A DNA stretch of 64,000 nt, taken from positions 434,001 through 498,000 of the forward strand of contig NZ_JAPFGA010000001.1 of the NCBI RefSeq assembly GCF_026241135.1, given 5' to 3'. The notes below the pieces were generated by a model, which saw only the letters and a list, made by a program, of their open reading frames with translations, was not told where the DNA came from and searched no databases. Each line of letters begins with the position of its first letter. Positions within the stretch are counted from its first letter, which is position 1. Source of the DNA: Galbibacter kalidii. GTDB taxonomy: Bacteria; Bacteroidota; Bacteroidia; Flavobacteriales; Flavobacteriaceae. The position numbers and the translations under genes were made by a program. This document shows, one piece after another, positions 1,282-49,180 of this stretch.

Positions 1282-2133
1282 ATGAACGAGCAACAAAAAC
1301 TAGATTACAACCGTATTGCAGAGGCAATAGAATTCATTAGAAACAACTTCAAAGAACAACCCAATCTTGACGAAGTGGCTTCAAAAGTGCATCTAAGCCC
1401 TTTTCATTTTCAACGTTTGTTCAGTGAATGGGCTGGTACGACACCCAAGAAATTTTTACAGTACATCAGTCTGGGGCATGCCAAAAAGTTGCTTAAAGGA
1501 CAGCAAGCCACACTTTTTGATACGGCTCATGAAACAGGGCTTTCAGGTACAGGGAGACTCCACGATTTGTTTGTCAACATTGAAGGCATGACACCCGCCG
1601 AATATAAAAATGGCGGCACAAAGCTTTCCATAAACTACAGCTTTGCTGAGAGTCCGTTTGGAAACCTGATGGTGGCCTCGACTTCCAAAGGAATATGTCA
1701 CATGGCTTTTATTGATGATGAAACCAAGGCGTTAATTGAATTGAAAGCAAAATTCCTCAATGCAAACTTTCAGCAAAAATTAGATCTGATTCAGCAAAAC
1801 GCACTCTTCATTTTCCAAAATGATTGGAGCAAGCTTGCGGAGATCAAATTACACCTTAAAGGCACGGATTTTCAATTAAAGGTTTGGGAAACGCTTTTAA
1901 AAGTACCTATGGGGAAACTATCCACCTATGGTGATATCGCTAGACAAATAGGCAATTCTAATGCTTCACGGGCTGTTGGTACTGCTATTGGAAACAACCC
2001 GGTAGCTTTTCTCATTCCCTGTCACAGGGTTATTCAATCCACCGGAGCCCTCGGGGGGTATAAATGGGGCGGCACCAGAAAAACTGCAATTATCGGATGG
2101 GAAGGAGCAAAAACCGACACCAGTCAATTGTAG
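1282..2133 (+). CDS. AraC-type HTH fused to methylated-DNA-[protein]-cysteine S-methyltransferase (Ada C-terminal half)
   Basis: N-terminal AraC HTH (EAIEFIRNNFKEQPNLDEVASKVHLSPFHFQRLFSEWAGTTPKKFLQ); C-terminal MGMT active site IPCHRV with GKLSTYGDIA. Confidence 0.92.
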   Translation: MNEQQKLDYNRIAEAIEFIRNNFKEQPNLDEVASKVHLSPFHFQRLFSEWAGTTPKKFLQYISLGHAKKLLKGQQATLFDTAHETGLSGTGRLHDLFVNIEGMTPAEYKNGGTKLSINYSFAESPFGNLMVASTSKGICHMAFIDDETKALIELKAKFLNANFQQKLDLIQQNALFIFQNDWSKLAEIKLHLKGTDFQLKVWETLLKVPMGKLSTYGDIARQIGNSNASRAVGTAIGNNPVAFLIPCHRVIQSTGALGGYKWGGTRKTAIIGWEGAKTDTSQL

Positions 2134-2209
2134 CAAGTTTCGGGTTTTCCTACAAGGTTTAAACGTCAATCTTTGTATTTGAATTTATAAATCATTTAAA
2201 AGAAAAACA

Positions 2210-2962
2210 ATGCAAAGATTTAAAAACAAATTCGCCATGATTACAGGCGGAACAAACGGTATGGGCTTTGCAACAGCCCAACAATTCATCAAAGAAGGCG
2301 GCTGCGTCATTATAACTGGAAGAAGTACCGAAACAGTCAATAAAGCGGTAGGGCAATTAGGTTCTAATGCCTTTGGTATCGTGTCCAATGCAGGTGATAT
2401 TGAAGACCTGTTGACTTTACAAGAAAAAGCAAGACGCTATACCGACAACATTGATGTGCTTTTTGCCAATGCAGGTTACGGGAAATTTTCACCTATTGAA
2501 AATGTTGATGAAGCCCATTTTGACGAACTGTTCAATGTATTGGTAAAAGGTACGTTTTTTACCGTACAGCAGATACTGCCTTTGATGAACGAAAATAGTT
2601 CTATAGTTCTAAACACATCAGTTGTTACAGCAATGGGAACATCAAACTTTTCAATTTATTCGGCGGCCAAGTCAGCTGTACAATCATTCATCAAGACCTT
2701 TGCGGCCGAATGTACCTCCAAAGGCATTCGTGTAAACGGTGTCAGTCCGGGATACATAAAAACCAATGGGTTTAACAACACTGGTTTAAGCCCCGAACAA
2801 ATTGAACGTACCATTCAAAACATAATTCCCACTATACCTTTCAAAAGGTTTGGTGAACCATTGGAAATAGCAAATGCTGTACTTTTTCTTGCTTCGGAAG
2901 AAGCTTCTTACATACACGGCACCGAATTGACAGTGGATGCGGGAATTTCAATTATTGCATAA
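2210..2962 (+). CDS. SDR family oxidoreductase
   Basis: TGGTNGMG nucleotide-binding motif, NAG, YSAAK catalytic motif, SPGYI. Confidence 0.93.
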   Translation: MQRFKNKFAMITGGTNGMGFATAQQFIKEGGCVIITGRSTETVNKAVGQLGSNAFGIVSNAGDIEDLLTLQEKARRYTDNIDVLFANAGYGKFSPIENVDEAHFDELFNVLVKGTFFTVQQILPLMNENSSIVLNTSVVTAMGTSNFSIYSAAKSAVQSFIKTFAAECTSKGIRVNGVSPGYIKTNGFNNTGLSPEQIERTIQNIIPTIPFKRFGEPLEIANAVLFLASEEASYIHGTELTVDAGISIIA

Positions 2963-3666
2963 TGGAAAAGATTATTGAACAAACTGATTGGGATCTTGTT
3001 ACAGAGGAGATCTACAATAAGGGTTTTACGATTATTCCGAAAATCTTAACGGGCAAAGAATGTGAAATCCTAAAATCAAATTACAATAAACCCAACTTTT
3101 ACAGAAAAACGGTAGTGATGGAACGTTATCGTTTTGGCTTAGGGGAATATAAATATTTCAACTATCCATTACCCGATCTTGTTCAGCAATTAAGAACAAA
3201 CATTTACCCGCATCTTGTACCGATAGCCAATATGTGGTTTAAAGCACTTAAAATGGACAGGCAATTTCCGCTATCGCATACAGAACTTTTGAAACAATGC
3301 CATGAAAACAATCAGCAAAAAGCCACGGTTTTGATTTTGAAATATGGCAAAGGCGGGTACAATACACTGCATCAGGATTTGTACGGGGATGTTTATTTCC
3401 CGATCCAGTGTGTATTGTTTTTAAATGAACCAGAAGAAGATTACACAGGCGGAGAGTTTGTAATGACTGAACAAAGACCAAGGGCACAGTCTAAAGCTAT
3501 TGTACTAAAACCCAAAAAAGGTGATATGTTGATTTTTACAACCAACTTCAGGCCTGTAAAAGGGACAAGAGCATATTACCGGGTCAATATGAAGCATGGT
3601 GTGAGTGAAGTGTACAGTGGAGAACGCCATACGTTGGGAATTATATTTCACGATGCCATAAGCTAG
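2962..3666 (+). CDS. 2OG-Fe(II) oxygenase
   Basis: HQD...H metal motif (LHQDLYGDVYFPIQCVLFLNEP; KHGVSEV...RHTLGIIFHDA); overlaps the preceding stop (TAATG). Confidence 0.85.
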   Translation: MEKIIEQTDWDLVTEEIYNKGFTIIPKILTGKECEILKSNYNKPNFYRKTVVMERYRFGLGEYKYFNYPLPDLVQQLRTNIYPHLVPIANMWFKALKMDRQFPLSHTELLKQCHENNQQKATVLILKYGKGGYNTLHQDLYGDVYFPIQCVLFLNEPEEDYTGGEFVMTEQRPRAQSKAIVLKPKKGDMLIFTTNFRPVKGTRAYYRVNMKHGVSEVYSGERHTLGIIFHDAIS

Positions 3667-3918
3667 TTGATGATTCGACACAGTGAAATATCTGATAGAG
3701 ATATACGTAATAGAATTAAAAAGCAGAAAATATGTTTTGGAGGAAACCATAAACTAAAAATTTACGGAACGCTATCTTGCACTTCAGGAAAACGGATGAA
3801 GCGGGAAAACAGGGTGTTCTTTGCTACCGAACAAGAAGCTGACGATAACGGTTTTCGCCCCTGCGGGCATTGTATGAAAGACAAATACAAAAAATGGAAA
3901 GATGGATTTATTCAATGA
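3667..3918 (+). CDS. Stand-alone Ada metal-binding (methylphosphotriester acceptor) domain protein
   Basis: CFGG...KIYGTLSCTSGKRMKRENRVFFATEQEADDNGFRPCGHC matches the Ada_Zn_binding pattern (C..C...C..C). Confidence 0.85.
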   Translation: MMIRHSEISDRDIRNRIKKQKICFGGNHKLKIYGTLSCTSGKRMKRENRVFFATEQEADDNGFRPCGHCMKDKYKKWKDGFIQ

Positions 3919-4516
3919 TGCACCTCTAGTCGACAAAAACAAAAACCTGTTACCTAAAGACGGAACAGTCAATTATTATGGAAAATTATTTAAAGCTACG
4001 GAAGCCAATTATTACTTAGACAAATTGCTTGACACTGTGGAATGGCGAAATGATGAAGCAATCATTTTTGGAAAGAAAATTATCACCAAGCGAAAAGTGG
4101 CCTGGTATGGTGAACAACCATTTCAGTACACCTACTCCAATACCACCAAAAAAGCCTTACCATGGACAAAAGAATTACTGGAACTTAAAAACATAGTAGA
4201 AAAAGTAACAGGGGAAAGTTTTAATTCCTGTTTGCTGAATTTATATCATGATGGACAAGAAGGTATGGCGTGGCATAGTGATGGAGAAACAGATTTGAAA
4301 AAAGACGGCGCTATCGGTTCGTTGAGTTTAGGGGCTGAGCGAAAATTTGCTTTTAAACACAAACAGACCAAGGAAAAAGTAGCATTGGTTTTAGAACACG
4401 GTAGTCTGTTGGTTATGAAAGGCACTACGCAAACACATTGGTTGCACCACTTACCCCCGACTAAACGTGTTATCAAACCAAGGGTGAATTTGACATTCAG
4501 AACCATTGCAACCTAA
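3902..4516 (+). CDS. alkB: Alpha-ketoglutarate-dependent dioxygenase AlkB family
   Basis: MAWHSDGETDLKKDGAIGSLSLGAERKFAFKHK ... HWLHHLPPTKRVIKPRVNLTFR motifs; overlaps previous CDS. Confidence 0.92.
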   Translation: MDLFNDAPLVDKNKNLLPKDGTVNYYGKLFKATEANYYLDKLLDTVEWRNDEAIIFGKKIITKRKVAWYGEQPFQYTYSNTTKKALPWTKELLELKNIVEKVTGESFNSCLLNLYHDGQEGMAWHSDGETDLKKDGAIGSLSLGAERKFAFKHKQTKEKVALVLEHGSLLVMKGTTQTHWLHHLPPTKRVIKPRVNLTFRTIAT

Positions 4517-5116: not shown

Positions 5117-5920
5117 ATGTTTGAAGTAAAAGATAAAGTAATTGTTATTACAGGAGGTACAGGTGTTCTGGGGAGTAGTATTGCAAAATCCCTTATTTGT
5201 GCAGGAGCTAAAGTGGTGATCATTGGACGTAACCCAGATAAACTTAACAGCATCACCAAATCCTTGGAAAATAAGGAAAACCTGATCGGCTTTTGTTGTG
5301 ATGTCCTGGACGAAGGCAAACTATGTGAAGTCAGGGATCAAATTCTCAAAAAATGGGATTCAATCCATGTGCTGATCAATGTAGCCGGGGGAAACATGCC
5401 AAGGGCTAATGTCAATGATGAACAGACTGTCTTTGATGTGAACATAGATGAGCATAAAAAGGTAATAGGCCTAAACCTGGATGGGACAATAATACCAAGC
5501 ATAATTTTCGGAAAAGTAATTGCTGAAAGTGGAGATGGAAGTATTATCAACATATCATCTATGGCAACATATTCAGCCATAACCCGGGTTATGGGTTATT
5601 CTGTCGCCAAGACCGGAGTTAACAATTTTACGCAGTGGATGGCTATGGAAATGGCGCTGAAGTTTGGAGATCGTGTTAGGGTCAATGCAATCGCCCCGGG
5701 CTTTTTTATTGGGGAACAAAATCGCAATGTACTGATCAATCCGGATGGATCTTACACAGAACGCAGCAAAAAAGTGTTGGCCCGAACCCCAATGAAGCGA
5801 TTTGGGAATATCAACGAGTTGAATGGAGCAGTACAGTTTTTATGCTCTGATGCAGCTTCATTTATAACTGGAGTGATTCTTCCGGTTGATGGAGGTTTTA
5901 GTTCCTTCAGTGGAGTGTAA
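5117..5920 (+). CDS. SDR family oxidoreductase, candidate D-mannonate/fructuronate oxidoreductase
   Basis: ITGGTGVLG, NVAGGNMP, YSVAKTGVNNFTQWMAMEMA, NAIAPGFFIGEQNR; the family commonly sits beside mannonate dehydratase in Bacteroidota. Confidence 0.82.
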   Translation: MFEVKDKVIVITGGTGVLGSSIAKSLICAGAKVVIIGRNPDKLNSITKSLENKENLIGFCCDVLDEGKLCEVRDQILKKWDSIHVLINVAGGNMPRANVNDEQTVFDVNIDEHKKVIGLNLDGTIIPSIIFGKVIAESGDGSIINISSMATYSAITRVMGYSVAKTGVNNFTQWMAMEMALKFGDRVRVNAIAPGFFIGEQNRNVLINPDGSYTERSKKVLARTPMKRFGNINELNGAVQFLCSDAASFITGVILPVDGGFSSFSGV

Positions 5921-15056: not shown

Positions 15057-16286
15057 ATGGCTTTAGAAAAAACATGGCGCTGGTTTGGTGAAAATGATCC
15101 AATCACATTGAACCATCTAAAACAAATGGGTGTCGAAGGGGTAGTCACAGCTCTACATCATGTCCCAAATGGGGAAATGTGGATGAAAGATGAAATCCTG
15201 AGGGTAAAAGAGAACATTGAAAACCATGATATGCGTTGGAGCGTAGTTGAAAGTTTACCAGTAAGTGAAGGGATCAAAACCTACTCTGATGATTGGTCAA
15301 GGTTAATTGCAAATTACCAACATTCTATTCGAAATTTAGGTGAATGTGGATTAGATACCGTATGCTACAATTTTATGCCAGTACTTGACTGGGCAAGAAC
15401 AGACCTAGAATACCAATTACCAAATAGTACGGAATCCATGTACTTTGATTTCTCCACCTTTGTGGCTTTTGATGTTTTTATTCTCAAACGGCCTGGTGCA
15501 GAGACCCAATATTCTGCAAAGTTGGTTGAAAAAGCGAGAGTAGTATATGACAATATGACGGAGGAAGATGCCGAAAAACTTGTTCACAATATTATTATTG
15601 CCACACAGCAATTTATTGATGGTGTTGTTAATGGTTCAAGCCCTGACCCAAAACAAGAATTTCTCACATACATTGATGTTTATAAAAATATCGACAAAAA
15701 AAAGTTACGAGAGAACCTGAAAGCGTTTTTGAATGAGATCATACCTGTTGCTGAGGAAGTAGGTGTAAGGCTGGCCATTCACCCGGATGATCCTCCGTTT
15801 TCACTATTGGGATTACCAAGGATTATGACCCAACTTGAAGATTATGAATGGTTGCTGCAGGCCAATACATCTCAAAACAATGGCATTACTTTTTGTAGCG
15901 GATCACTTTCTGCCCGTAAAGACAACGACCTGCTCAAGATTATTAACAAAACGAGTGAACGTATCCACTTTGTGCATTTGCGCAATACCCAACTTTTGGA
16001 TGATGGTAGCTTTTATGAATCAGGTCATTTAAAAGGGAGCCAAAATATGGACGGGATCCTACTAGCATTATTAGAAGAGCAACAACGCAGAAAAGATTTG
16101 GGACGTAAAGATATCCGAATGCCATTTCGTCCAGATCATGGATTGAAAGTGCTTACTGATTTCGAGAATGAATATAACCCCGGATATCCATTAATAGGCC
16201 GCCTCAAAGGACTATCAGAGATTGACGGATTAATGAAAGGCCTGGAATATGTTTTAACAGCAAATAGACAAACCAAATTAATTTGA
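15057..16286 (+). CDS. uxuA: Mannonate dehydratase
   Basis: MALEKTWRWFGENDPITLNHLKQMGVEGVVTALHHVPNGEMW; RLAIHPDDPPFSLLGLPRI; MPFRPDHGLKVL. Confidence 0.95.
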   Translation: MALEKTWRWFGENDPITLNHLKQMGVEGVVTALHHVPNGEMWMKDEILRVKENIENHDMRWSVVESLPVSEGIKTYSDDWSRLIANYQHSIRNLGECGLDTVCYNFMPVLDWARTDLEYQLPNSTESMYFDFSTFVAFDVFILKRPGAETQYSAKLVEKARVVYDNMTEEDAEKLVHNIIIATQQFIDGVVNGSSPDPKQEFLTYIDVYKNIDKKKLRENLKAFLNEIIPVAEEVGVRLAIHPDDPPFSLLGLPRIMTQLEDYEWLLQANTSQNNGITFCSGSLSARKDNDLLKIINKTSERIHFVHLRNTQLLDDGSFYESGHLKGSQNMDGILLALLEEQQRRKDLGRKDIRMPFRPDHGLKVLTDFENEYNPGYPLIGRLKGLSEIDGLMKGLEYVLTANRQTKLI

Positions 16287-16337: not shown

Positions 16338-19300
16338 ATGAAAAAACAACTACTAACAGTGATACTGTTATTCGCCTTAGCAGGGAATGCCTTATCACAA
16401 GAATTTATGCATCCGGGAGGCCTCCATACCCTAGAGGACCTCAACCGCATGAAAGAAAAAGTCACTGCCGGGGAAAGCCCCTGGATAGAAGGCTGGAATG
16501 CGCTGGTTTCCGACGGGAAATCAAGTGCCACATATGGTATATCTGGTGGCGTCAGGGAAAATGCCAACCAGCGACAGAACATGAACAGGGACGCACAGGC
16601 GGCTTACCTAAACGCGCTCCGCTGGTACATCTCCGGAGACGTAGCCCATGCAGAGAAGGCCATAAGCATATACATGGCCTACGCCAATACCGTTAACCAA
16701 ATACCTTCAGGAGGAACTACGGATATATTGGGGCTGGGAGGTATAGGTTTTACAGCGATGGCCATGGGTGCGGAGATTATGAGACTCTATGAGGGCTGGG
16801 CTCCGGAGGACTTTGAGAAATTCAAGTTCATGATGAAGGAGTATTTCTACCCAGTAAGCCACGACTTCCTGACCAACCATCGCGGTGCCTGCCCTACGCA
16901 TTATTGGGCAAACTGGGACCTAAACAATGTTTCTGCACTGCTTGCCATCGGTATCCTTGTGGATGACCGGGATATTTTCAACGAAGGCATTGAGTATTTC
17001 AAGAGTGGGGTAGGGGCCGGCAATATCCATAACGCTGTCCCCTTTGTCCAGGGAAACTTCGGGCAATGGCAGGAGTCCGGAAGGGACCAGTCACATGCCC
17101 TGCTGGGTATCGGGTTGATGGCGAATACCTGCCAAATGGCCTGGAACCAGGGAATAGACCTGTATGGCTATGAGGACAACCTCTTTTTAAAAGGTGCGGA
17201 ATATGTAGCCCGTACCGGCGCGCTTTCACTCGAAGCGCCATTTTTTGAAGAATACAACAGCTGTTCCAATCGAAGGCACCGCTGGATAAGCAGCAATGCA
17301 CTGGGAAAGTACCATGATCAACCTGTTTGGGAAATCGTCTACAATCATTATGTGGTGCAACAGGGGATGGAAGCGCCCCATGTGGAGGCCATGGCACAAA
17401 TCATGAGGTCAGCCAAGAGTACCCGTGACCAGTTGGGTCATGGTACACTCACTTTTACACTGGATGCAGCCGCTTCCCCATTGGCCTTTACAGTACCTCC
17501 CGGGCAGCCGCAAGGTCTTATTGCAAAAGAAGGTATTGGCAGAGTGGAATTGAGTTGGAATGCAGCTGAAGCCATGGACACCAAAGGATATACCGTTAAG
17601 CGTGCCACCAGTCCCGGAGGACCTTACACTACCGTGGCCTCTTGGACAAGTAGAACGAACCCGCGATATACCGATACCAATGTGGAAAACGGCACGACGT
17701 ACTATTATGTTGTTTCTGCCAATAACCACGCCGGTGATGGGCCAGAGTCAGTGGAGGTCTCAGCCACTCCTATGGAAGCGGTACAAGAGCTGCCAATGGG
17801 ATGGACCAGGGCAGACATAGGCAACCTGAGCATTGAAGGGGAGGCAAGCTATGCAGCGGTCAATACCGGACACACCTTTATCACCAAGGGAGCCGGTATC
17901 GTCGGTGGAACTTCCGATGCCCTGGGATTCACCTACGGGATCGCTTCAGGAGATGTAACGCTCACCGCAAGGATAGCAGACTTTGGAGGAGTGCAAAAAA
18001 CAGGGATCATGATCCGTGAATCCCTGGATCCCGATGCCAAAACCGTACTGATGAAAATTGGGGATGGAGGTTGGCGCTTAGCTGCAATGGGTGCGCGTAC
18101 CGGGACAGGAGAAAACATGGAATGGATAGGCGGAAACCGCTATACATGGCGCCCCAATATCTGGTTCAGGATTTCCCGGACAGGAAATACCTTTACCGTG
18201 TATGAATCCAACAACAAGGATGTGTGGTTTGAAGTAGGCAGCCGTACCATCGAAATGGGGGGTGATGTCTATGTGGGGCTCTTCAACAGTTCCGGCAATA
18301 CTACTTCATTGAATACTACACGATATGATCACGTCGCTATCACAGGACTTGATAGTAATACACCGGAAACGCCTGCTAACCTTACAGCTTCACCCGGTAA
18401 TACTCAGAACATGCTGGGTTGGGATGAAGTAACCGGTGCTTCCAGCTATACCTTAAAGCGCTCTACAACTAGTGGAGGTCCCTATGAAGTGGTAGCTACA
18501 AACCTGAATGCCACCCAGTATACAGATAATGGGCTGGAGAATGGGACGACCTACTATTATGTGGTATCGGCTGCTAACCTTTCCGGAGAGAGTGTCAACT
18601 CTTTGGAGGTAAGTGCTGCGCCTGAATTAGCTATTGCACTGGCACCTGAAGAAGTAACCGCTGAGTCGGTATCCGGACAGCAAATCAATCTTTTCTGGAA
18701 TGAAAGCTTAAGTGCGACAAGTTATAATGTAAAGCGGGCGAAAGTAAGTGGTGGACCTTATACAGTCATTGCCAGTCCGGACACCACGTCATTTAGTGAC
18801 ACGACGGTAACCCATTCTTCCACTTATTATTATGTGGTATCTGCTATAAACGAACTTGGGGAATCAGAGGATTCCGAAGAAGTAAGTGCAACTCCCGGAC
18901 AGTTAGGTTACTGGAATTTTGATGAAATGGAGGGTGCCACAGCAAACGATTCATGGGGACTGAACAATGGAACCCTACAAAGTGGAGCAAGCTGGACTTC
19001 CGGTATAGTCAATAATGCAGTTAGTTTTGATGGAAGCAGCAGTGGGTATGTTGACCTTCCGGATAACATCATGAGTGATATAAATGGTGATTTTACCATA
19101 GCTATCTGGGTTCGGTTAGACGAAGTGGCTACATGGGCCCGCATTCTTGACTTTGGTACCAATAACGACAACTCCATGTTTCTGGTCCCGAAGACATCAG
19201 CCTCAGGCGAAGGAATTCGGTTTGCTATTAAGACCACAAGTGGATATCCAAAGCTATCCTATAACTATACCTGGCCACTGGATACCTGGACGCATATCGC

Positions 19301-22300
19301 TGTGACCCTGAGTGGCGATACAGCAACGATGTACCTCAATGGAGAGCCAGTAGCTTCGAGTACCGGTTTTAATAAACGACCTTCAGATCTGGGAAATACC
19401 AACAATAACTTCCTAGGAAGAGGACAGAAGTCCGATGATCCTATGCTGAAAGGTGATATCGACGAATTCAGAATCTATAACACGGCATTGAGTGGTGAGG
19501 AGATTTCAGATTTGGTTGGAGATTTGGTACCTCCAACGCCAACGACTATTCTTTCTGTTACCGGAGATGGACAACAGGTATCCTTAAACTGGGCAGAATC
19601 AATAAAAGTGACCAGCTACAATGTAAAACGTGCTGCCGTAAGTGGTGGGCCGTATACGACAATTGGAAGCGTTACAAGTACATCATTTAGTGATGCCACA
19701 CTTACAGATGATAAGGTTTACTACTATGTGGTTTCTTCCGTGAACAAAAATGGAGAGTCAATCAACTCGGCCGAGGTAAAAAGTACTGTTTCGGGTAAAA
19801 CAGGTTATTGGAAGATGGATGAAACGAGTGGTATGATAGCTACTGATTCGTGGGCCGATGGAAATGGAACACTTCATGGTGATACGACTTGGTCTGAAGG
19901 CATAGCGGATAACAGCGTACTCCTGGATGGTAGTGGCGACTATGTTACCTTTCCTGAAGGTTTGATGAAAACTACCGAGGATTTCACCATAGCTACCTGG
20001 GTACGGTTGGACGAAGTAGCCGTATGGTCACGCATTTTTGACTTTGGTACCGAGAATAACAATTCCATGTTCCTAACCCCAAGGACATCGACTTCCGGAG
20101 AAGGAATCCGGTTTGCCGTCAAGACCACAAGTGGATATCCGAAGTTATCCTATAACTATACTTGGACACCGGATACTTGGACGCATATAGCTGTGACCCT
20201 GAGTGGCGATACGGCTACGATGTATATCAACGGAGGGGCAGTAGCTTCCAGCACAGGATTCACCAAGCGACCTTTAGACTTGGGCAACACGACCAACAAC
20301 TACTTAGGTAAAGGTCAGAATGCTCCGGATCCTTATCTGAAAGGTTCCATCGATGACTTCAGGATATATAATAGAGCCTTAAGTGAAACAGAGATTTCAG
20401 ACATGGTAGGAGATGTATTGCCTCCAACTCCAACGACTATTCTCTCTGTTACCGGTGATGGACAAAAGGTATCCTTAAACTGGACAGAATCATTAAAAGT
20501 GACCAGCTATAATGTAAAACGTTCGGCCATAAGTGGTGGACCGTATACAACAGTTGGCAGTATAGCAGATACATCATTTAGCGATGCCACGCCTACAGAT
20601 GATGAGGTTTATTATTATGTGGTTTCGGCAGTGAATGAAAATGGAGAATCAGCCAATTCTGCAGAAGTAAAAAGCTCCGTGTCAGGTAAAACAACTTACT
20701 TGAAGATGGATGAGCTAAGTGGCACAACAGCAGCCGATTCGTGGGCAGATAGTGATGGTAATGTTCACGGAGGGGCTAGTTGGTCTGAGGGCATAGAGGA
20801 TAATGGCCTACTTCTGGATGGCAGTGACGATTATGTTGCCCTTCCTGAAGGTTTGATGACAGCTACCGAAAACTATACCATTGCTACCTGGGTTCGTTTT
20901 GACGGGAAGCCTGCAAGATGGGCGCGTATTTTTGACATTGGTTCAGGGAGTAATCTTAGCAATACCATGTATTTGGTTCCAAATACGGGAGAGACCAGTG
21001 ACGGAAAACAAACTATCCGGTTTGCCATTTATAGCGATGGTTCCACCAATTCGAAATTGGCATACGATTATGCCTGGCAAGAAAATACCTGGACGCATAT
21101 AGCTGTGACCCAAAGTGGTAGTACTGCTAAAATGTATGTAGACGGGGTGTTCGTAGCTGAAACTACTTTTGACCGGGGTGCTTCGAATTTGGGAAATACG
21201 ACCAACAACAACATAGGTAGATCGCAGAGAGGTTCAAAAGATCCTTTTCTGAAAGGCTCCATTGATAATTTTAAGATTTATAACAGGGCCTTGAGTGCCG
21301 AAGAGGTAGCAGAAGCCATGAAGATAAAGCAGGTCATTAGCTTTGATCCATTGGAGTCGAAGCTAATAGGTGATCCGGGTTTTGCGGTAAAAGCGCATGC
21401 TTCCTCTGATTTGCCGGTATACTTTACCAGTTCGGATTCTTTGGTGGCTAAGGTTGTTGGTGATACGGTTTATATCACCGGGGTTGGCAATACGGATATT
21501 GTTGCTCACCAGGACGGTGATAGCCTTTATCGTGCCGCTGATCCGGTGGTACAAACCTTCACAGTACAGCCACTAGATCTCAAGGTCTTGCATAAAGATG
21601 GTGACCATAATAATACAGCAAACAAAAGCATAAAGCCTCATTTACGAATTGAAAACAACGACGCTATTGGTGTTGCCTATAGTGAAATATCAGTTCGCTA
21701 CTGGTTTACTGCAGAAAATTTTGCAGGTATCAATACCTGGATAGATTATGCCCAACTGGGTGGAAATAAGGTCTCAATGAACTACGTATCTCTTCCGGAA
21801 CCGCATGAAGGTGCCCTTGGGTATATCGAGTATGAGTTTGACGCTTCTTTGGGCGATTTATTACCGGGTACTGGCTCAGGACCAATCCAATCGAGATTTG
21901 CCAATAAAGACTGGTCAAATTTTGATGAGACTGATGATTATTCATTCCAATCCAATGCTTCCTACATAGAGAATGAACAGATTACGCTGTATAGGAACGG
22001 ACAACTGGTATGGGGAACAGAACCAGCACAGGTTAATGCAGATTTGAGTTTGAAAGTATTTTCTGAAAATAAAAATGCGAATACCGATACCGGTACGATC
22101 AAGACTTACTTGAAGCTTGTCAATGAGGGCAATGTTCCGGTAGATTATAAAGATTTGAGTATCAGGTATTGGTTTACAAAAGACAGTGAAGCCGATCTGA
22201 ACTATTGGATAGACCATGCGGATTTGGATGAATCAAATATATCGGGTCAGTTTGTAGCCCTTGATCCTGCCTTTTCAGGAGCAGATACTTATTTTGAAAT

Positions 22301-22811
22301 TTCAGTGAATTCGGCAGTTGGATCGCTATATCCGTTAAGTAACACTGGAGAAATTCAGTATAGGATTACCAAAACTGATTGGTCTAAATTCGATGAATCA
22401 GATGACTATTCTTATTTGCCAAAAGCACCGTTTGCAGAAAACGATCATATAACGGTTTACTATCAGGGACAATTGGTATTTGGAACGGAACCTACTGGAA
22501 CAGAATCCGGTATGGCCAAGAGGATACAGGCTGAAAAGAGTAATGAAGATAATCCTGAAGGAATTGAATCTATGGATATATATGTTTATCCAAATCCTGT
22601 ATTAGATAAGGTTACTATTTTGCTTGCAGAGCCTTTAAAGAATGCAACCCTGTCTGTACATAGTAGTTTTGGCAGACTAATCAAGACAGAAAAAGTGAGT
22701 GGGCAAGAGTGCGAAATTGATTTAAGTACAGTTCCGCAAGGGGTTTACGTTCTTACGTTGACAAGCACAGAGACAGAGAGGAAAATTATAAGGAAAATAG
22801 TGAAGGAATGA
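16338..22811 (+). CDS. Giant modular polysaccharide lyase: Alginate_lyase-like catalytic domain, FN3 domains, a concanavalin-like domain, three LamG, two CBM3-like modules, T9SS type A sorting domain
   Basis: N-terminal HYWANWDLNNVSALLAIGI and QWQESGRDQSHALLGIGLMANTCQMAWNQG; FN3 motifs SYNVKRAxVSGGPYTTI...YYYVVSAxNxxGES; LamG motifs ITIATWVRLDE...SRIFDFG...TWTHIAVTLSGDTATMYING; CBM3-like YWFTAENFAGINTWIDYAQ and YWFTKDSEADLNYWIDHAD; C-terminal YVYPNPVLDKVTI...GVYVLTLTS. ATG at 16338 preferred over the TTG of the ORF track. Confidence 0.9.
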   Translation: MKKQLLTVILLFALAGNALSQEFMHPGGLHTLEDLNRMKEKVTAGESPWIEGWNALVSDGKSSATYGISGGVRENANQRQNMNRDAQAAYLNALRWYISGDVAHAEKAISIYMAYANTVNQIPSGGTTDILGLGGIGFTAMAMGAEIMRLYEGWAPEDFEKFKFMMKEYFYPVSHDFLTNHRGACPTHYWANWDLNNVSALLAIGILVDDRDIFNEGIEYFKSGVGAGNIHNAVPFVQGNFGQWQESGRDQSHALLGIGLMANTCQMAWNQGIDLYGYEDNLFLKGAEYVARTGALSLEAPFFEEYNSCSNRRHRWISSNALGKYHDQPVWEIVYNHYVVQQGMEAPHVEAMAQIMRSAKSTRDQLGHGTLTFTLDAAASPLAFTVPPGQPQGLIAKEGIGRVELSWNAAEAMDTKGYTVKRATSPGGPYTTVASWTSRTNPRYTDTNVENGTTYYYVVSANNHAGDGPESVEVSATPMEAVQELPMGWTRADIGNLSIEGEASYAAVNTGHTFITKGAGIVGGTSDALGFTYGIASGDVTLTARIADFGGVQKTGIMIRESLDPDAKTVLMKIGDGGWRLAAMGARTGTGENMEWIGGNRYTWRPNIWFRISRTGNTFTVYESNNKDVWFEVGSRTIEMGGDVYVGLFNSSGNTTSLNTTRYDHVAITGLDSNTPETPANLTASPGNTQNMLGWDEVTGASSYTLKRSTTSGGPYEVVATNLNATQYTDNGLENGTTYYYVVSAANLSGESVNSLEVSAAPELAIALAPEEVTAESVSGQQINLFWNESLSATSYNVKRAKVSGGPYTVIASPDTTSFSDTTVTHSSTYYYVVSAINELGESEDSEEVSATPGQLGYWNFDEMEGATANDSWGLNNGTLQSGASWTSGIVNNAVSFDGSSSGYVDLPDNIMSDINGDFTIAIWVRLDEVATWARILDFGTNNDNSMFLVPKTSASGEGIRFAIKTTSGYPKLSYNYTWPLDTWTHIAVTLSGDTATMYLNGEPVASSTGFNKRPSDLGNTNNNFLGRGQKSDDPMLKGDIDEFRIYNTALSGEEISDLVGDLVPPTPTTILSVTGDGQQVSLNWAESIKVTSYNVKRAAVSGGPYTTIGSVTSTSFSDATLTDDKVYYYVVSSVNKNGESINSAEVKSTVSGKTGYWKMDETSGMIATDSWADGNGTLHGDTTWSEGIADNSVLLDGSGDYVTFPEGLMKTTEDFTIATWVRLDEVAVWSRIFDFGTENNNSMFLTPRTSTSGEGIRFAVKTTSGYPKLSYNYTWTPDTWTHIAVTLSGDTATMYINGGAVASSTGFTKRPLDLGNTTNNYLGKGQNAPDPYLKGSIDDFRIYNRALSETEISDMVGDVLPPTPTTILSVTGDGQKVSLNWTESLKVTSYNVKRSAISGGPYTTVGSIADTSFSDATPTDDEVYYYVVSAVNENGESANSAEVKSSVSGKTTYLKMDELSGTTAADSWADSDGNVHGGASWSEGIEDNGLLLDGSDDYVALPEGLMTATENYTIATWVRFDGKPARWARIFDIGSGSNLSNTMYLVPNTGETSDGKQTIRFAIYSDGSTNSKLAYDYAWQENTWTHIAVTQSGSTAKMYVDGVFVAETTFDRGASNLGNTTNNNIGRSQRGSKDPFLKGSIDNFKIYNRALSAEEVAEAMKIKQVISFDPLESKLIGDPGFAVKAHASSDLPVYFTSSDSLVAKVVGDTVYITGVGNTDIVAHQDGDSLYRAADPVVQTFTVQPLDLKVLHKDGDHNNTANKSIKPHLRIENNDAIGVAYSEISVRYWFTAENFAGINTWIDYAQLGGNKVSMNYVSLPEPHEGALGYIEYEFDASLGDLLPGTGSGPIQSRFANKDWSNFDETDDYSFQSNASYIENEQITLYRNGQLVWGTEPAQVNADLSLKVFSENKNANTDTGTIKTYLKLVNEGNVPVDYKDLSIRYWFTKDSEADLNYWIDHADLDESNISGQFVALDPAFSGADTYFEISVNSAVGSLYPLSNTGEIQYRITKTDWSKFDESDDYSYLPKAPFAENDHITVYYQGQLVFGTEPTGTESGMAKRIQAEKSNEDNPEGIESMDIYVYPNPVLDKVTILLAEPLKNATLSVHSSFGRLIKTEKVSGQECEIDLSTVPQGVYVLTLTSTETERKIIRKIVKE

Positions 22812-22827
22812 TAAGAGAGTTATAATA

Positions 22828-22876
22828 AAAAAGGGAAGATTGGAATAGTAAATATTATTATTTCGGTCTTCCCTTT
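22828..22876 (+). terminator. Rho-independent-like terminator after the giant lyase
   Basis: AAAAGGGAAGA ... TCTTCCCTTTT hairpin. Confidence 0.65.
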
Positions 22877-23012: not shown

Positions 23013-23090
23013 TGATGTATTACGAACTCAACTTGCTTTCGAGAATTATGGTTTTAGCAAGTTGATTTTTTAATCTTGATAAAAATATTG

Positions 23091-24998
23091 ATGATCAAAT
23101 CGAAATACAGAAAATACTTTTTATTAATCCTGTTCACCGGGGTGATTATCAATTATGGGGTTGTTGCACAGGAAACAAAACGTTTTGAACAAAAAAATTA
23201 TTCACCGGACAAAAATTATGAGTTGAACATAAGCAGGGATGCTACTACCGGTAAAATAACGTATCAAATCAATTATAAAGGAAAAACGCTTATCAAAAAG
23301 TCGCGGTTAGCCATCTCTCTGGACAACCACCTTTCCGAATGGGCGTTGGCTATTAAGGAAAAGCCTGAAGGACCGTGGATGGAAGGGCTGGTATTGAAAG
23401 AAACCAGAACAAACTCAGTAGATTCCAGCTGGACACCAGTTTATGGTGAACGTTCTGTTATACAGGAGAATTACAACGAACTGATCCTGTCATTCGAGCA
23501 AAAGGCCAGCGTTAACTACAAAATGGACATTCAGTTAAGAGCTTACAATGAAGGGGTGGCGATCCGGTATTATTTCCATACCAACCCAACAGGCATCTAC
23601 TATCGTATCACCGAAGAAAATACCGAATTCACTTTTCCCGAAGGTACTCAAGCATGGTTCGAGCCATGGGCTCAGGGACCGTTTACCAAAATGCCTTTGT
23701 CTGACTGGCCGGCCGAAAGTGAGAGGCCCTTGACTTTGGAGCTGGAAAATGGATTGTATGCCTGTCTGGCAGAAGTGGCTATGGTAGATTTCGTCAGAAC
23801 CAAATTTGAACTGGCCAAGGAAAAACCCAATACCGTGAAAACTGTACTTTATGAGTCAGTGGATAAAGTACCTTACTTTAGTACACCCTGGCGGGTAATC
23901 ATGGCAGCAGAAACTCCGGGGGAACTGATCGAGAATAATGATATCTTACTAAATCTGAACGCTCCTTCCAAAATTGATCCCGAAACTTCGGAATGGATCA
24001 AGCCCGGGAAAATAGTTCGCGATAAGTCCCTCACGGATAAAGGTTCTAAAGAATGGATAGACTTTGCCGTTGAACATAATCTTCAGTATTTATTAATCGA
24101 TTGCTGCTGGTATGGCGAACATTTTGGTTGGGATACGGATGCGAAAGAGGTGCAGATTGATATGAGCTTGAAAGAAGTAATTGAGTATGGGAATGAAAAA
24201 GGAATTGGCACTTTCTTATATGTGAATCAGCAGGCTTTGTCTAAACAGGATTTTGAGTTGTTCCCCCTTTATAAAGAATGGGGAGTGGTTGGTGTTAAAT
24301 ATGGATTCGTTCAGGTAGGTTCACATCGTTGGACCAAATGGCTACATGAATCGGTGCAGCGGGCTGCAGAAAATCAATTAATGGTCAATATCCACGATGA
24401 ATTCCGTGTCACTGGAGAACAACGTACTTGGCCCAACATCATGACCGTAGAGGGTATCCGCGGCAATGAAGAAATGCCCGATGCAACGCATAACACAATC
24501 TTACCCTTTACCAGGGGAATAGCTGGAATGGGTGATTATACGGTATGCTACTACTCCCCACAGATCAAAACCACCCACGCCCATCAGTTGGCGTTATCCG
24601 TGGTGATGTACAGTCCGTTGCAAACCTTATTTTGATATGATAAAGCCTCCGATTACGAGGGCGAACCTGAGATTGAATTTTTCGAGAAGGTACCTACCGT
24701 ATGGGATGATACCAAAGTGCTGGATGGTCGGATAGGAGAGTATATCATAACGGTAAGACGCTCTGGTGATGATTGGTTCATTGGAGGAATCACTAATAAT
24801 GACGCCCGAGAGGTTGAGTTGAATTTTGATTTTCTTGAAGAAGGCAAAAAGTATGTTGCCACCATCTACGAGGATGATGAATCAATTAACACTCGTACAC
24901 AGGTATCGCTTACACAGAAAAAACTGACCAGTAGATCAAAGATAACACTGTCACTGAAAGCTTCAGGGGGAGTGGCGATATGGGTAAGAGAGCGATAG
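23091..24998 (+). pseudogene. GH97 alpha-glycosidase gene interrupted by an in-frame TGA (24633-24635)
   Basis: GH97 N-domain and barrel (RFEQKNYSPDKNYELNISRD..., LLIDCCWYGEHFGWDTD, MTVEGIRGNEEM, LPFTRGIAGMGDYT); the same frame continues after TGA as YDKASDYEGEPEIEFFEKVPTVWDDTKVLDG...VAIWVRER. Confidence 0.85.
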
Positions 24999-25082
24999 GA
25001 ATGGTAATTAAAATCTGTATGTTCTGTCCCTGTCCAAGAATGGGGTTTTACCTGTAAATTTAAATTTTATAAATAGATTAAA

Positions 25083-26510
25083 ATGTATTCTAAGTCGATG
25101 AAAAAATTATCATTTATTATTGTTGTGTTTGTATGGTTCATGTCGGTGGACATGGTTTTTCCGCAGGACAGCCTTGTTACCTATGATGTTCCCAAGGCAC
25201 TTTTTTATTCCATGCACAATGATGATTTTACCGTGCAGGTCAGAAAGCCGGGAGAGCAATGGAAAGACCTTTATGAGTACAATGTCAAAGTAGATATGGA
25301 CACAGAGTCCAATGCTTCTATGGTTTATTTTGACTTTTCAGGGACTGTGGAAGTGAAAATCAGGAAAAACAATGGCTTAGTGGGATCAGTAGCTATTCGA
25401 CCATTGTCTTATGAGATCACTCCTGAAGTGAAAGGGAATATCATACAATTTTCCCTCGACAGGCCCAGAAATATTTCCATCGAGGTGGATGGGGACAAGC
25501 TACACAATCTGCACCTGTTTGCCCAGCCAGTTGAGGAAAGCCGTCCGGATCCCAATGACCCGAATGTCGTATATTTTGGCCCGGGTGTACACGAAGCGCC
25601 GGATAAGCCGGGAGATGTCTTCTCGATCAAAAGTGGCCAGACGGTGTATATTCATGGTGGGGCTGCCATCAAGGGGAAATTGCTTTGCGATAAGGTGAAA
25701 GACGTGCGTATCATTGGCCGGGGTATGATCTTAAATCCCGAGCGCGGTGTGGAGATCCGGCATTCGGAAAATGTGGAAATCGACGGGATTCATGTCGTCA
25801 ATCCCAAACACTATACTGTTTACGGTGGAGAGTCAAAGGGGCTAAAGATCAGGAATATTACCTCATTCAGTTGTGGACCGTGGACGGATGGTATTGACCT
25901 GATGAGTTGTTCCGATGTAGAGATCGATGGTGTCTTCATGAGGAACTCAGATGATTGTATCGCTATTTATGCACATCGTTGGGATTTCTATGGCGATGCA
26001 AGAAACTATAAGATCACCAATTCCACCCTTTGGGCAGATATTGCCCATCCGACCAATATAGGAGCCCATGGAAATACCGAAAATGAAGGGGATACGATTG
26101 AAAATATCACATTCTCTAATATTGACATTCTGGAGCATGATGAAGATGACCCGTGCTGTCTGGGCACTATGGCTATAATTGCGGCTGATAACAATCTGGT
26201 GCGAAATGTGACTTATGAAAACATCCGAATAGAAGATATCCAGGAGGGACGCTTGTTTGATTTGCGTGTGTTGAATAACCCGAAATACAACACTAAATCA
26301 GGAAGATCAATTGAGAACATTCATTTCAAAGACATTAGTTACAATGGCTCTGGTCTTCATCCTTCTCAGATAAAAGGATTCAATGAAGACCGGAATGTCA
26401 ATGGTGTAACATTGGAAAATGTGAAGATTAATGGTGAAAAGATCATATCAGCAGAGCAAGGCGATATTATCATCGGGGATTTTGTGGAAAATATAAAGTT
26501 CAAAAAATAA
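25083..26510 (+). CDS. GH28-like right-handed beta-helix glycoside hydrolase
   Basis: VYIHGGAAIKGKL, IIGRGMI, VEIDGI, GPWTDGIDLMSCSDVEIDGVFMRNSDDCIAIYAHR beta-helix and Asp catalytic motifs. Confidence 0.8.
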   Translation: MYSKSMKKLSFIIVVFVWFMSVDMVFPQDSLVTYDVPKALFYSMHNDDFTVQVRKPGEQWKDLYEYNVKVDMDTESNASMVYFDFSGTVEVKIRKNNGLVGSVAIRPLSYEITPEVKGNIIQFSLDRPRNISIEVDGDKLHNLHLFAQPVEESRPDPNDPNVVYFGPGVHEAPDKPGDVFSIKSGQTVYIHGGAAIKGKLLCDKVKDVRIIGRGMILNPERGVEIRHSENVEIDGIHVVNPKHYTVYGGESKGLKIRNITSFSCGPWTDGIDLMSCSDVEIDGVFMRNSDDCIAIYAHRWDFYGDARNYKITNSTLWADIAHPTNIGAHGNTENEGDTIENITFSNIDILEHDEDDPCCLGTMAIIAADNNLVRNVTYENIRIEDIQEGRLFDLRVLNNPKYNTKSGRSIENIHFKDISYNGSGLHPSQIKGFNEDRNVNGVTLENVKINGEKIISAEQGDIIIGDFVENIKFKK

Positions 26511-27563: not shown

Positions 27564-27637
27564 AACCATTAAGAAGTTAAGGGACATTAAGGATATTCTT
27601 AAGAGCAGCCTTAATTACCTTAATGCCTTAATGGTTA
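27564..27637. repeat. About 74-bp near-palindrome built from ATTAAGG units
   Basis: TAACCATTAAGAAGTTAAGGGACATTAAGGATATTCTTAAG faces CTTAAGAGCAGCCTTAATTACCTTAATGCCTTAATGGTTA. Confidence 0.75.
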
Positions 27638-27975
27638 AAAATCTCCATCTTGAGGAGCAACCGGAATATGTGTTGGATTTTATTCGCAAGGTACCTACCA
27701 CATGGGATGAAACCGTGTTTATCGATGGCTACCCAGGCAAGCAGATAGTGATGGCTCGGAGAAAAGGTGAACACTGGTATGTGGTGGCGGTGAATGGGGA
27801 AAAACAAGAGAAGGAGTTGACGGTAGCCCTGCCGATGCTGGCCAATCAGGAGGTGAACCTGATATTTGACAAGGAAAACCGCACAGCAGGTATTAAAAAA
27901 CTGAAAGTAAGCAAGAAAGGAAAGGTAAAACTAATACTACTGCCGGAAGGTGGTGCGGTTATATATTCCAAGTGA
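27631..27975 (+). pseudogene. Orphan GH97 C-terminal domain fragment
   Basis: PEYVLDFIRKVPTTWDETVFIDGYPGKQIVMARRKGEHWYVVAVNGEK parallels GH97 C-terminal sequence at 24660-24998; catalytic domains absent. Confidence 0.75.
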
Positions 27976-46390: not shown

Positions 46391-49180
46391 GTGAAAAAAC
46401 TGATTTATATATTCTTTGGTATAAGCTTAATGTTTTCGGCAAATGCTCAACTTCCTGTCCCTAATGATGTTGGAAAGGTCCATCCACGTTGTTTTGGAAG
46501 TGATATGTCCAGAGATGCTGTACAGAAACTGGTAGCAAACAAAGAATGGGCTGCTAAGGATGTAAAACGAACAGAAGAGCGGCTTGCAAAATATCTGGAT
46601 TATTGTGAGAAAGAACCTGATTGGTTGCTGTCCCGGCTCCAGATGTATTGGAAAACCAAATCTACCCAAGTATATATCAACGGAGGAAGATATCATCATG
46701 CAGAGGGTGAAGCCCCTGTACCTACGGTAAGATTCCCGGGCACCAGAGACCACCGCACCAATTATTTTACACCAAGTTTGAAAGACATAAAGCCCTATAT
46801 GGATGACGAGCGTGGGTTATACCTTCAAAGAAGGGATAACAAGCAATGGGAATGGACAGACATCCCGTCATCGGCCCGCATCGTAGAGTCTATCAACAGG
46901 AATATCCTTGGCATTGCAAGAGACGCAGCCTTTATGTATTGGTACACAGGTGAAGATGCCTATGCGCAGCTGGCCTATGGAGTACTAGACACTTATCTAA
47001 CCGGGCTATACTACCGTACCGGGCCGATAGACCTGAGTCATGGACATCATCAGACACTTGTAGGGTTAACTTCTTTTGAAGTGATTCAGGAGCATTATAT
47101 TGCTAAAGTAACCCAGGCTTATGATTTTCTCCACGGTTATCTCTCTTCAAATCATCCTAACAAGATTGCGCTATATAGCACCAGTCTGCAGAAGTGGGCA
47201 GATCAGGTGATCAAAAATGGGGTCAGCTTTAACAACTGGAACCTTTTTCAGGCAGGACATGTGTCACGCATTGCCCTGGTGCTGGAAAATGACTCGGTCT
47301 ACGAAAACAGAAAAGGGGCACAATATTACCTCGATCAAATTATGAACCGGACAAGTACCCGACAGTGGTCCATGCAGAAACTGATCGACTACGGTTATGG
47401 AGTTGAGGGCATTTGGAATGAAAGCCCGGGGTATTCGTTGGGGGTGCTTAGGGATTTTATTCATTTTTCAGAATTTTATGATCGGACTTTTGATATTGAT
47501 TTGATCAAAGAACTACCGATCTTGCGCCAAGCAGTACTTTCGGCAACTCAATACCTTTATCCTAATGGCTTTAAGGTGGCTTTTGGCGATGGACACTACG
47601 GAAAGCTGCAAGCAGAACCTGTACTTTATATGATCAAAAACGCCAAAAAATTTGGTAAAGAAGAAGATGAAATCCTTTTTACCCGTTTGCTCAAGACCCT
47701 GTTTGACGAAAATGTGTATGCCGGTGAATTTAAAGGAAAATATATTGAAGACCTCTTTACGGAAGGACCTCTCAAAGTAAGGGAAGATATTAAAGCAGGT
47801 AAGTTGGAAGGCTTTACGTCGCCATTGTTTTATACAACCAATTCCAGTTGGTTAGTACAACGGCAGGGAGAAGGAGATACTGGATTGATGATCAGTCAGA
47901 TTGGATCGAAGGGGAACCACATGCATTCCAACGGGATTGCCATGGAGCTTTATGGAAGAGGACTTCCATTGGCTCCCGAAATGGGACATGGGTCGAGTTA
48001 TTTTTCAATAGAGTACGCCGAATACTACACCCAATTCCCGGCACACAATACCGTAATCGTGAATGGGAGATCCAAATACCCTGAAATGAAAAGTAATCAT
48101 GCGTTTAATGTGGTCACATCTTATCCTAAAAGTGGAAAAAAAGAAGGAAATGTGCCAGGGATCACTTTTTCAGATGTTGAATTTTTAGAGCCGGAAACCA
48201 ATTCGAACCAACGAAGGGTGATGGGAATCATTAAACATGGTGAAGAGGAAGGATATTATATTGATGTTTTCCGTTCCAAACAAAAGGATGGAAATGATAT
48301 CAAACATGAATATTTTTATCATAACCTAGGGCAGGAACTTCGGATAGTTGACAAAGAAGGAGAGCCTTTGGATTTACAACCTACCAATAAACTGGCCTTT
48401 GGGGATGGAGACCTTATGGCCTATGATTATTTGTGGGATAAAAAATCAATAAAGTATGATAGGGATTTTAAAGGACAGTTCAATTTAAATACAGATGATA
48501 GGGGTGTTTCCATGAATTTGTGGATGCAAGGAAGTTCCGGCCGTGAGTTGTTTTCTGTACTTTCTCCAAAATCTACTGCTTTTCGGCATGGTATATTATC
48601 AAAAGAATTGGCAGACAAACCTATTCCAACCCTTGTTGTGCGGCAGGAAGGAGAAGCTTGGAAAAAGCCTTTTGTAGCTATTTATGAACCGGCGCTTAAT
48701 GGTGATAGCAATATCCGATCGGTAGATTATTTTGGAAATAGCGATTGGGTGGGGATACAAGTAAACAATGAATCAGAAATAAAGGACTTTATCTTCTCTT
48801 CATCAGAAGCTGATATAAAGATGCAGCACCATGATATAATAATAAAAGGGACTTATGGAGTGGTTAGTTATGAGGATAAAAACAATCGGTTTTCCTTGTT
48901 TCTCGGAAATGGAAAATCAATCCAAATGGGAGTGTTTAAGTTGGAGATGAATAAAGATTATGGCACTTCGGCATTGGTTCAACAGGAAGGTGGATTATAT
49001 TTGACTTCTGAAGCCCCGGTAATATTAACCTTACCAATAAATAATATTAGAAAACAAAAAATACTCATAGATAAAAACGGGAGGTCCTATAAGGGAAAAA
49101 CAAATAAAAGGGCTAAAACAGTCTCTTTTAAACTCCCTAAACTTGATTATGGTCCCGTTAAAATAATAGAAAAAAATTGA
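46391..49180 (+). CDS. Heparinase II/III-like polysaccharide lyase
   Basis: Signal peptide; alpha/alpha toroid region (GHHQTLVGLTSFEVIQEHYIAK, NNWNLFQAGHVSRIAL) and HepII/III-type GSKGNHMHSNGIAMELYGRGLPLAPEMGHGSSYF; GTG start. Confidence 0.82.
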   Translation: MKKLIYIFFGISLMFSANAQLPVPNDVGKVHPRCFGSDMSRDAVQKLVANKEWAAKDVKRTEERLAKYLDYCEKEPDWLLSRLQMYWKTKSTQVYINGGRYHHAEGEAPVPTVRFPGTRDHRTNYFTPSLKDIKPYMDDERGLYLQRRDNKQWEWTDIPSSARIVESINRNILGIARDAAFMYWYTGEDAYAQLAYGVLDTYLTGLYYRTGPIDLSHGHHQTLVGLTSFEVIQEHYIAKVTQAYDFLHGYLSSNHPNKIALYSTSLQKWADQVIKNGVSFNNWNLFQAGHVSRIALVLENDSVYENRKGAQYYLDQIMNRTSTRQWSMQKLIDYGYGVEGIWNESPGYSLGVLRDFIHFSEFYDRTFDIDLIKELPILRQAVLSATQYLYPNGFKVAFGDGHYGKLQAEPVLYMIKNAKKFGKEEDEILFTRLLKTLFDENVYAGEFKGKYIEDLFTEGPLKVREDIKAGKLEGFTSPLFYTTNSSWLVQRQGEGDTGLMISQIGSKGNHMHSNGIAMELYGRGLPLAPEMGHGSSYFSIEYAEYYTQFPAHNTVIVNGRSKYPEMKSNHAFNVVTSYPKSGKKEGNVPGITFSDVEFLEPETNSNQRRVMGIIKHGEEEGYYIDVFRSKQKDGNDIKHEYFYHNLGQELRIVDKEGEPLDLQPTNKLAFGDGDLMAYDYLWDKKSIKYDRDFKGQFNLNTDDRGVSMNLWMQGSSGRELFSVLSPKSTAFRHGILSKELADKPIPTLVVRQEGEAWKKPFVAIYEPALNGDSNIRSVDYFGNSDWVGIQVNNESEIKDFIFSSSEADIKMQHHDIIIKGTYGVVSYEDKNNRFSLFLGNGKSIQMGVFKLEMNKDYGTSALVQQEGGLYLTSEAPVILTLPINNIRKQKILIDKNGRSYKGKTNKRAKTVSFKLPKLDYGPVKIIEKN

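Follow-up and report, generated by a model that had tools for sequence, protein, structure and literature searches.

Modular layout of the giant protein

Within the window, by which we mean the whole 64,000-nucleotide stretch of Galbibacter kalidii DNA analysed here, the ORF at 16338–22811 on the (+) strand is a single intact frame, with its ATG at 16338, its stop at 22811 and a product of 2157 aa. To map the modules of this protein, each piece was searched against relatives. From the N-terminus, a signal peptide and an Alginate_lyase-type domain are followed by FN3, a ConA-like sandwich and two more FN3 modules; LamG, FN3, LamG, FN3 and LamG then lead to an Ig-like module, two CBM3 modules and a T9SS tail.

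16338–16397 (+), signal peptide, residues 1–20 (MKKQLLTVILLFALAGNALS); predicted, read from sequence
16398–17471 (+), catalytic (alpha/alpha)-toroid domain, residues 21–378, PF05426-type; Pfam, AF2, Foldseek
17496–17783 (+), FN3 1; Pfam, relatives search
17784–18347 (+), ConA-like (DUF1349-like) sandwich, residues 483–670; AF2, Foldseek; directly after FN3 across the subfamily
18360–18626 (+), FN3 2; relatives search
18642–18908 (+), FN3 3; relatives search
18906–19523 (+), LamG 1; Pfam, relatives search
19542–19802 (+), FN3 4; relatives search
19803–20414 (+), LamG 2; Pfam, relatives search
20433–20693 (+), FN3 5; relatives search
20694–21323 (+), LamG 3; Pfam, relatives search
21330–21572 (+), Ig-like module ahead of the CBM3s; read from sequence, kept before CBM3 in relatives
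21573–22025 (+), CBM3 1; Pfam, solved-CBM3 matches
22038–22493 (+), CBM3 2; Pfam, solved-CBM3 matches
22575–22808 (+), T9SS type A sorting domain; Pfam, NCBIfam

Much of this layout had been anticipated. The Alginate_lyase-like domain of the original prediction matches PF05426 at residues 73–292 (E 1e-13; 51.4 bits against a gathering cut-off of 22.2), and the three LamG modules that it named are returned by Pfam as three Laminin_G_3 copies (E 4e-99). The FN3, CBM3 and tail entries of its module list also stand, with FN3 now counted as five modules (Pfam fn3, E 3e-12); the ConA-like and Ig-like modules were missing from that list. The three FN3–LamG units are 66–75% alike in DNA, and judging by sequence the series is an old tandem triplication. 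For the ConA-like module Pfam gives only a weak DUF1349 match (E 0.04). Its AF2 model has a pLDDT of 93.5, and Foldseek assigned it to a ConA-type sandwich (DUF1349 protein 3mep, TM 0.67–0.70), with further matches to CBM66 and GH43 C-terminal sandwiches. An NCBIfam match of the whole protein to TafC was rejected; its 110 bits fell far short of the 410-bit cut-off, and it lay in the LamG region.

The two modules previously described as CBM3-like are real CBM3s. Pfam finds two copies of CBM_3 (E 1.5e-37), and both match solved CBM3s (EglS 2l8a, 6d5b and CipA 1nbc), with best E values of 6e-30 and 2e-32. Each retains an Asp followed by Tyr/His, plus Arg...Trp, at the binding-strip positions of CipA-type modules. 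Significant similarity and binding-strip residues together place both within CBM3, with binding itself predicted, and docking of the giant on cellulose is likely on these grounds. A search of the 4.66-Mb genome found these two to be its only CBM3s, despite the presence of GH9 genes.

The claim of a T9SS sorting domain, and with it secretion, was likewise upheld. The C-terminal type A domain matches Por_Secre_tail in Pfam (E 1e-11) and TIGR04183 in NCBIfam (42.5 bits against a cut-off of 23). SprA is present in the host genome along with 15 T9SS-tail matches, this protein among them, so a T9SS export route exists in the host. The sorting domain and the translocon together mark the protein as T9SS cargo.

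Fold and family of the catalytic domain

AF2 modelled the catalytic domain as a confident helical toroid (pLDDT 93.1, pTM 0.93). The best solved structures found by Foldseek were PL17, PL38, PL39 and PL5 lyases, at a TM of ~0.5–0.65, 12–15% identity and a probability of 1.00, and 42 of the 42 matches at E ≤ 0.001 were named lyases, heparinases or chondroitinase. The uronate-lyase fold originally proposed is therefore supported by both the toroid model and its top solved neighbours, all of them polysaccharide lyases.

A genome scan with profile A2 recovered at least 563 relatives of the domain, 80 of which were kept and 78 aligned for conservation counts. The kept relatives come from Bacteroidota, Verrucomicrobiota, Kiritimatiellota, Actinomycetota, Pseudomonadota, Acidobacteriota and others; the family is rare in random same-class genomes (7/295), and a search of viral contigs found no relatives. 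PF05426 is matched by all 78 aligned relatives, and no other Pfam family is matched consistently; NCBIfam, searched with the domain, has no model. We found no publication describing this branch in the literature; a CAZy family number may already exist. As judged from sequence and predicted structure, the domain forms an uncharacterised branch of its own within the (alpha/alpha)-toroid lyases (PL5/17/38/39). The host genome holds a second family member ~7 kb past the window end, a single-domain protein of 431 aa that is 42% identical and has a lipoprotein-like start. Three Paraprevotella homologues carry two tandem catalytic domains per protein.

A maximum-likelihood tree placed the window's domain within a 31-row clade (support 100/100) whose members share the catalytic–FN3–ConA arrangement. 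Arrays ending in Ig–CBM3–CBM3 also occur in Dyadobacter, Pseudarcicella, Ohtaekwangia, a MAG labelled Bacteroides and a Chitinophagaceae MAG, which indicates that the giant is a recurrent architecture and not a unique one.

The surrounding PUL and the likely substrate

The genes around the lyase in the window encode GH2, GH43, GH28, GH97, SusC/D, GH115, a PL40-like lyase, GH88, BNR, DUF2264 and another GH2. The features that bear on transcription and substrate are the following.

5117–5920 (+), SDR, D-mannonate oxidoreductase (UxuB role); NF006132 above cut-off
15057–16286 (+), mannonate dehydratase UxuA, 51 bp upstream of the lyase gene; PF03786, E 5e-119
22832–22874 (+), terminator-like hairpin with T-run; −27.4 kcal/mol, z −8.0
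25083–26510 (+), GH28-like protein, kept neighbour of the subfamily; window scan, neighbour counts
46391–49180 (+), another predicted lyase, resembling PL40 ulvan lyase Uly1040; PDB 9vtk, E 8e-28
52258–53535 (+), GH88 unsaturated glucuronyl hydrolase; PDB 3wiw, E 4e-86

UxuA ends 51 bp before the lyase ATG, confirming the position right after mannonate dehydratase that had been noted. This spacing and the strong hairpin directly 3′ of the lyase gene make the transcription unit proposed for the two genes likely, with the lyase probably its last gene. Judged by its gene content (UxuA, UxuB-like, GH88, GH115, GH2, PL40-like), the PUL is very likely glucuronate-oriented. The window's GH88 has its closest matches among unsaturated glucuronyl hydrolases, and two UxaC genes lie in the genome outside the window; GH88, UxuA, the D-mannonate oxidoreductase and UxaC together fit beta-elimination of a glucuronate-containing polymer, while the GH28 leaves other uronates possible.

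Other parts of the window were also recorded. The PL40-like lyase is present though no sulfatase occurs among the window genes scanned. The GH97 gene at 23076–25025 has an in-frame TGA at 24633–24635 where three relatives have Trp, and its frame stays open past the TGA through the C-terminal domain, as in a broken gene or a sequencing error; an orphan GH97 C-terminal domain at 27631–27975 is apparently the remnant of a second GH97. At 55099–57093 a DUF2264 domain is fused to a GH16-like C-terminal part, and 1282–4516 holds an alkylation-repair-like row of an AraC-methyltransferase (Ada-like), an SDR-like gene, an Oxygenase-NA protein and an AlkB-like oxygenase.

Across the subfamily, a GH28 relative lies within 10 kb of the lyase in 12 of the 20 Bacteroidota clade members and in 1 of 21 outside the clade (p 0.0002), and the neighbouring GH28s of the clade are mostly ~60% identical. 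In Labilibaculum the lyase gene sits among GH88, GH28, GH43 and GH97 genes. UxuA was found at 0 of the 31 clade loci within the flanks examined, and its adjacency was rejected as a family-wide clue. GH115 and DUF2264 showed no recurrence beside relatives' lyases either, which leaves this one locus as the source of the glucuronate reading.

The GH28 neighbour points to other glycans. Together with GH43, GH97 and GH127 in relatives' loci, its recurrence would suit a lyase acting on a galacturonate polymer, pectin-like or otherwise, from which the GH28 partner would strip an alpha-linked sugar. However, the window's uronate catabolism is of the glucuronate/mannonate type, and no rhamnosidase family occurs among the window genes scanned. 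In GH28 an Arg-x-Lys motif binds galacturonate; the catalytic half of this GH28 has the Asp pair and a His and lacks Arg-x-Lys, and it may not act on galacturonides. We consider a galacturonate substrate unlikely, and a glucuronate-containing polymer is the substrate we prefer. The more specific proposal of a glucuronan lyase is possible, and nothing points to that polymer in particular, the subfamily's kept neighbour being a GH28 and no glucuronate-catabolism gene.

Predicted active site, proposed mode of action and known systems

The original prediction had named PL38 as a candidate type for the domain, and this assignment did not hold. Searched against the PDB, family profile A3 did not retrieve BoPL38 (8bdq) at E ≤ 10 and reached 3nfv marginally (0.14); the broader profile A1 found 3nfv at 2e-5 and 8bdq at 0.07, a similarity at superfamily level only. 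A sure PL38 relative from another genome, matching 8bdq at E 8e-79, was used as a query across 297 genomes and found no match in the window's genome, where two proteins belong to the family studied here. The family profile, in turn, brought up nothing beyond its own family apart from some weak fragments. Profile–profile alignment with 25 PL38 relatives gave a probability of 96–98% at 14% identity (E no worse than 2e-9), and by sequence the domain is distantly homologous to PL38. From these profile, single-sequence and profile–profile searches we rejected PL38 as the family and kept it as a distant relative.

The comparison with BoPL38 centres on two short motifs.

16911–16916 (+), Asn-Trp pair, domain residues N172–W173, opposite BoPL38 N242–H243; hhalign, 78-relative alignment
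17082–17096 (+), R-D-Q-S-H motif, domain residues R229–H233; hhalign, 78-relative alignment

At ~14% identity, hhalign places N172 on BoPL38 N242, W173 on H243 and H233 on Y298. The H233–Y298 match is common to the local A3 and A1 alignments, which place their gaps differently near R229; in A1, N172 is not cleanly aligned. No substitution at N172, W173, R229, D230 or H233 occurs in any of the 78 relatives, although the conservation of the Q-W-Q-E-S-G-R-D stretch owes something to its use as a search pattern; the patterns of that scan included neither W173 nor H233. Of the catalytic Asn-His (N242–H243) and Tyr298 of PL38, the Asn is kept in this alignment, the His position is Trp and the Tyr position falls on His. 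Y298 and H243 are reported to be the H5-abstracting residues of BoPL38 (PMC13169297). Alginate lyases of PL5, 15, 17, 38 and 39 are reported to conserve a His equivalent to H243, which one PL35 enzyme requires to cleave alginate (PMC12088678), so that its absence here argues against alginate.

A PL38-type glucuronan or alginate lyase would account for the shared fold class, the place of PL38 among the top Foldseek matches and the profile–profile similarity, but with sequence-level recognition absent both ways and an invariant Trp and an invariant His at the H243 and Y298 sites, we judge it very improbable. A uronide glycoside hydrolase that relies on catalytic acids, for example E226, D230 or E126, would suit the invariant or near-invariant acids at those sites and the loss of both acid/base residues of known lyases, but has little to recommend it given the kept Asn/Arg carboxylate clamp, the uniform Foldseek matches and a nearby GH88 that implies unsaturated products.

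Neither the catalytic Tyr nor the catalytic His of the closest characterised lyases is retained here, so we infer beta-elimination from fold and context. The giant is very likely a secreted uronate lyase. We favour, as the probable explanation, a T9SS-exported lyase of an uncharacterised toroid branch, extracellular or surface-attached, that cuts a likely glucuronate polymer while held on cellulose-like fibres. The N-terminal toroid domain would cleave a uronic-acid polymer, most likely glucuronate-containing, by beta-elimination, with Asn172 and Arg229 holding and neutralising the substrate carboxylate and the invariant His233 perhaps serving as acid/base in place of the Tyr of PL5/PL38. Attachment to cellulose-like fibres bearing the polymer would come from the two CBM3s together with the ConA-like module and the LamG/FN3 string. 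Released unsaturated oligosaccharides would pass to GH88 and other PUL exo-enzymes, and glucuronate would enter metabolism through UxaC, the UxuB-like SDR and UxuA. With rather more doubt than confidence, we extend this to the wider proposal that the domain founds an uncharacterised lyase family of at least 563 members across several phyla, with an Asn-Trp/Arg...His site in which His stands for Tyr, and that its CBM3–T9SS giants degrade a cellulose-associated glucuronate polymer. If true, the toroid lyases would gain a family with different catalytic residues, found in many bacteria, among them Bacteroidota, Verrucomicrobiota, Actinomycetota, Pseudomonadota and others.

PL38 (BoPL38, PDB 8bdq and 9fi-series; CUL-I; TpPL38A; Aly38A; RiPL38), whose members and substrates are catalogued in PMC13027841, shares with the present domain the toroid fold, the PF05426 relation and the equivalent Asn and Arg, and acts on uronates, in which we liken the domain to it. 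The present domain differs in its 12–15% identity, the absence of sequence recognition, Asn-Trp for Asn-His, His for Tyr, and its place in a modular giant. The toroid domains of PL5 (A1-III, Smlt1473), PL17 and PL39 also share the fold, with the Glu...Arg spacing as in A1-III, but at a TM of only ~0.5–0.65 and with catalytic His/Tyr that are not kept here; PL17 and PL39 own a second beta-sheet domain of a different kind from this protein's. The CBM3s of CipA (1nbc), EglS (2l8a) and 6d5b share clear sequence membership and the Asp/aromatic and Arg...Trp positions, but belong to a cellulosome or cellulase, whereas here their partners are a lyase domain and a T9SS tail. An exported protein uniting a uronate lyase with cellulose-directed modules has already been published as CelAly, recent modular enzymes of marine flavobacteria for cellulose plus alginate (ISME J 2026; PMC13235733). 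CelAly-type proteins (GH5+PL31; PL14+GH9 with CBM2) embody the same idea in a single exported polypeptide, but with other lyase families and a cellulase domain, whereas the cellulose-directed part of the present giant is CBM3 only. If our reading is true, the giant would represent a second, unrelated solution besides CelAly for T9SS bacteria attacking fibre-embedded uronate polymers.
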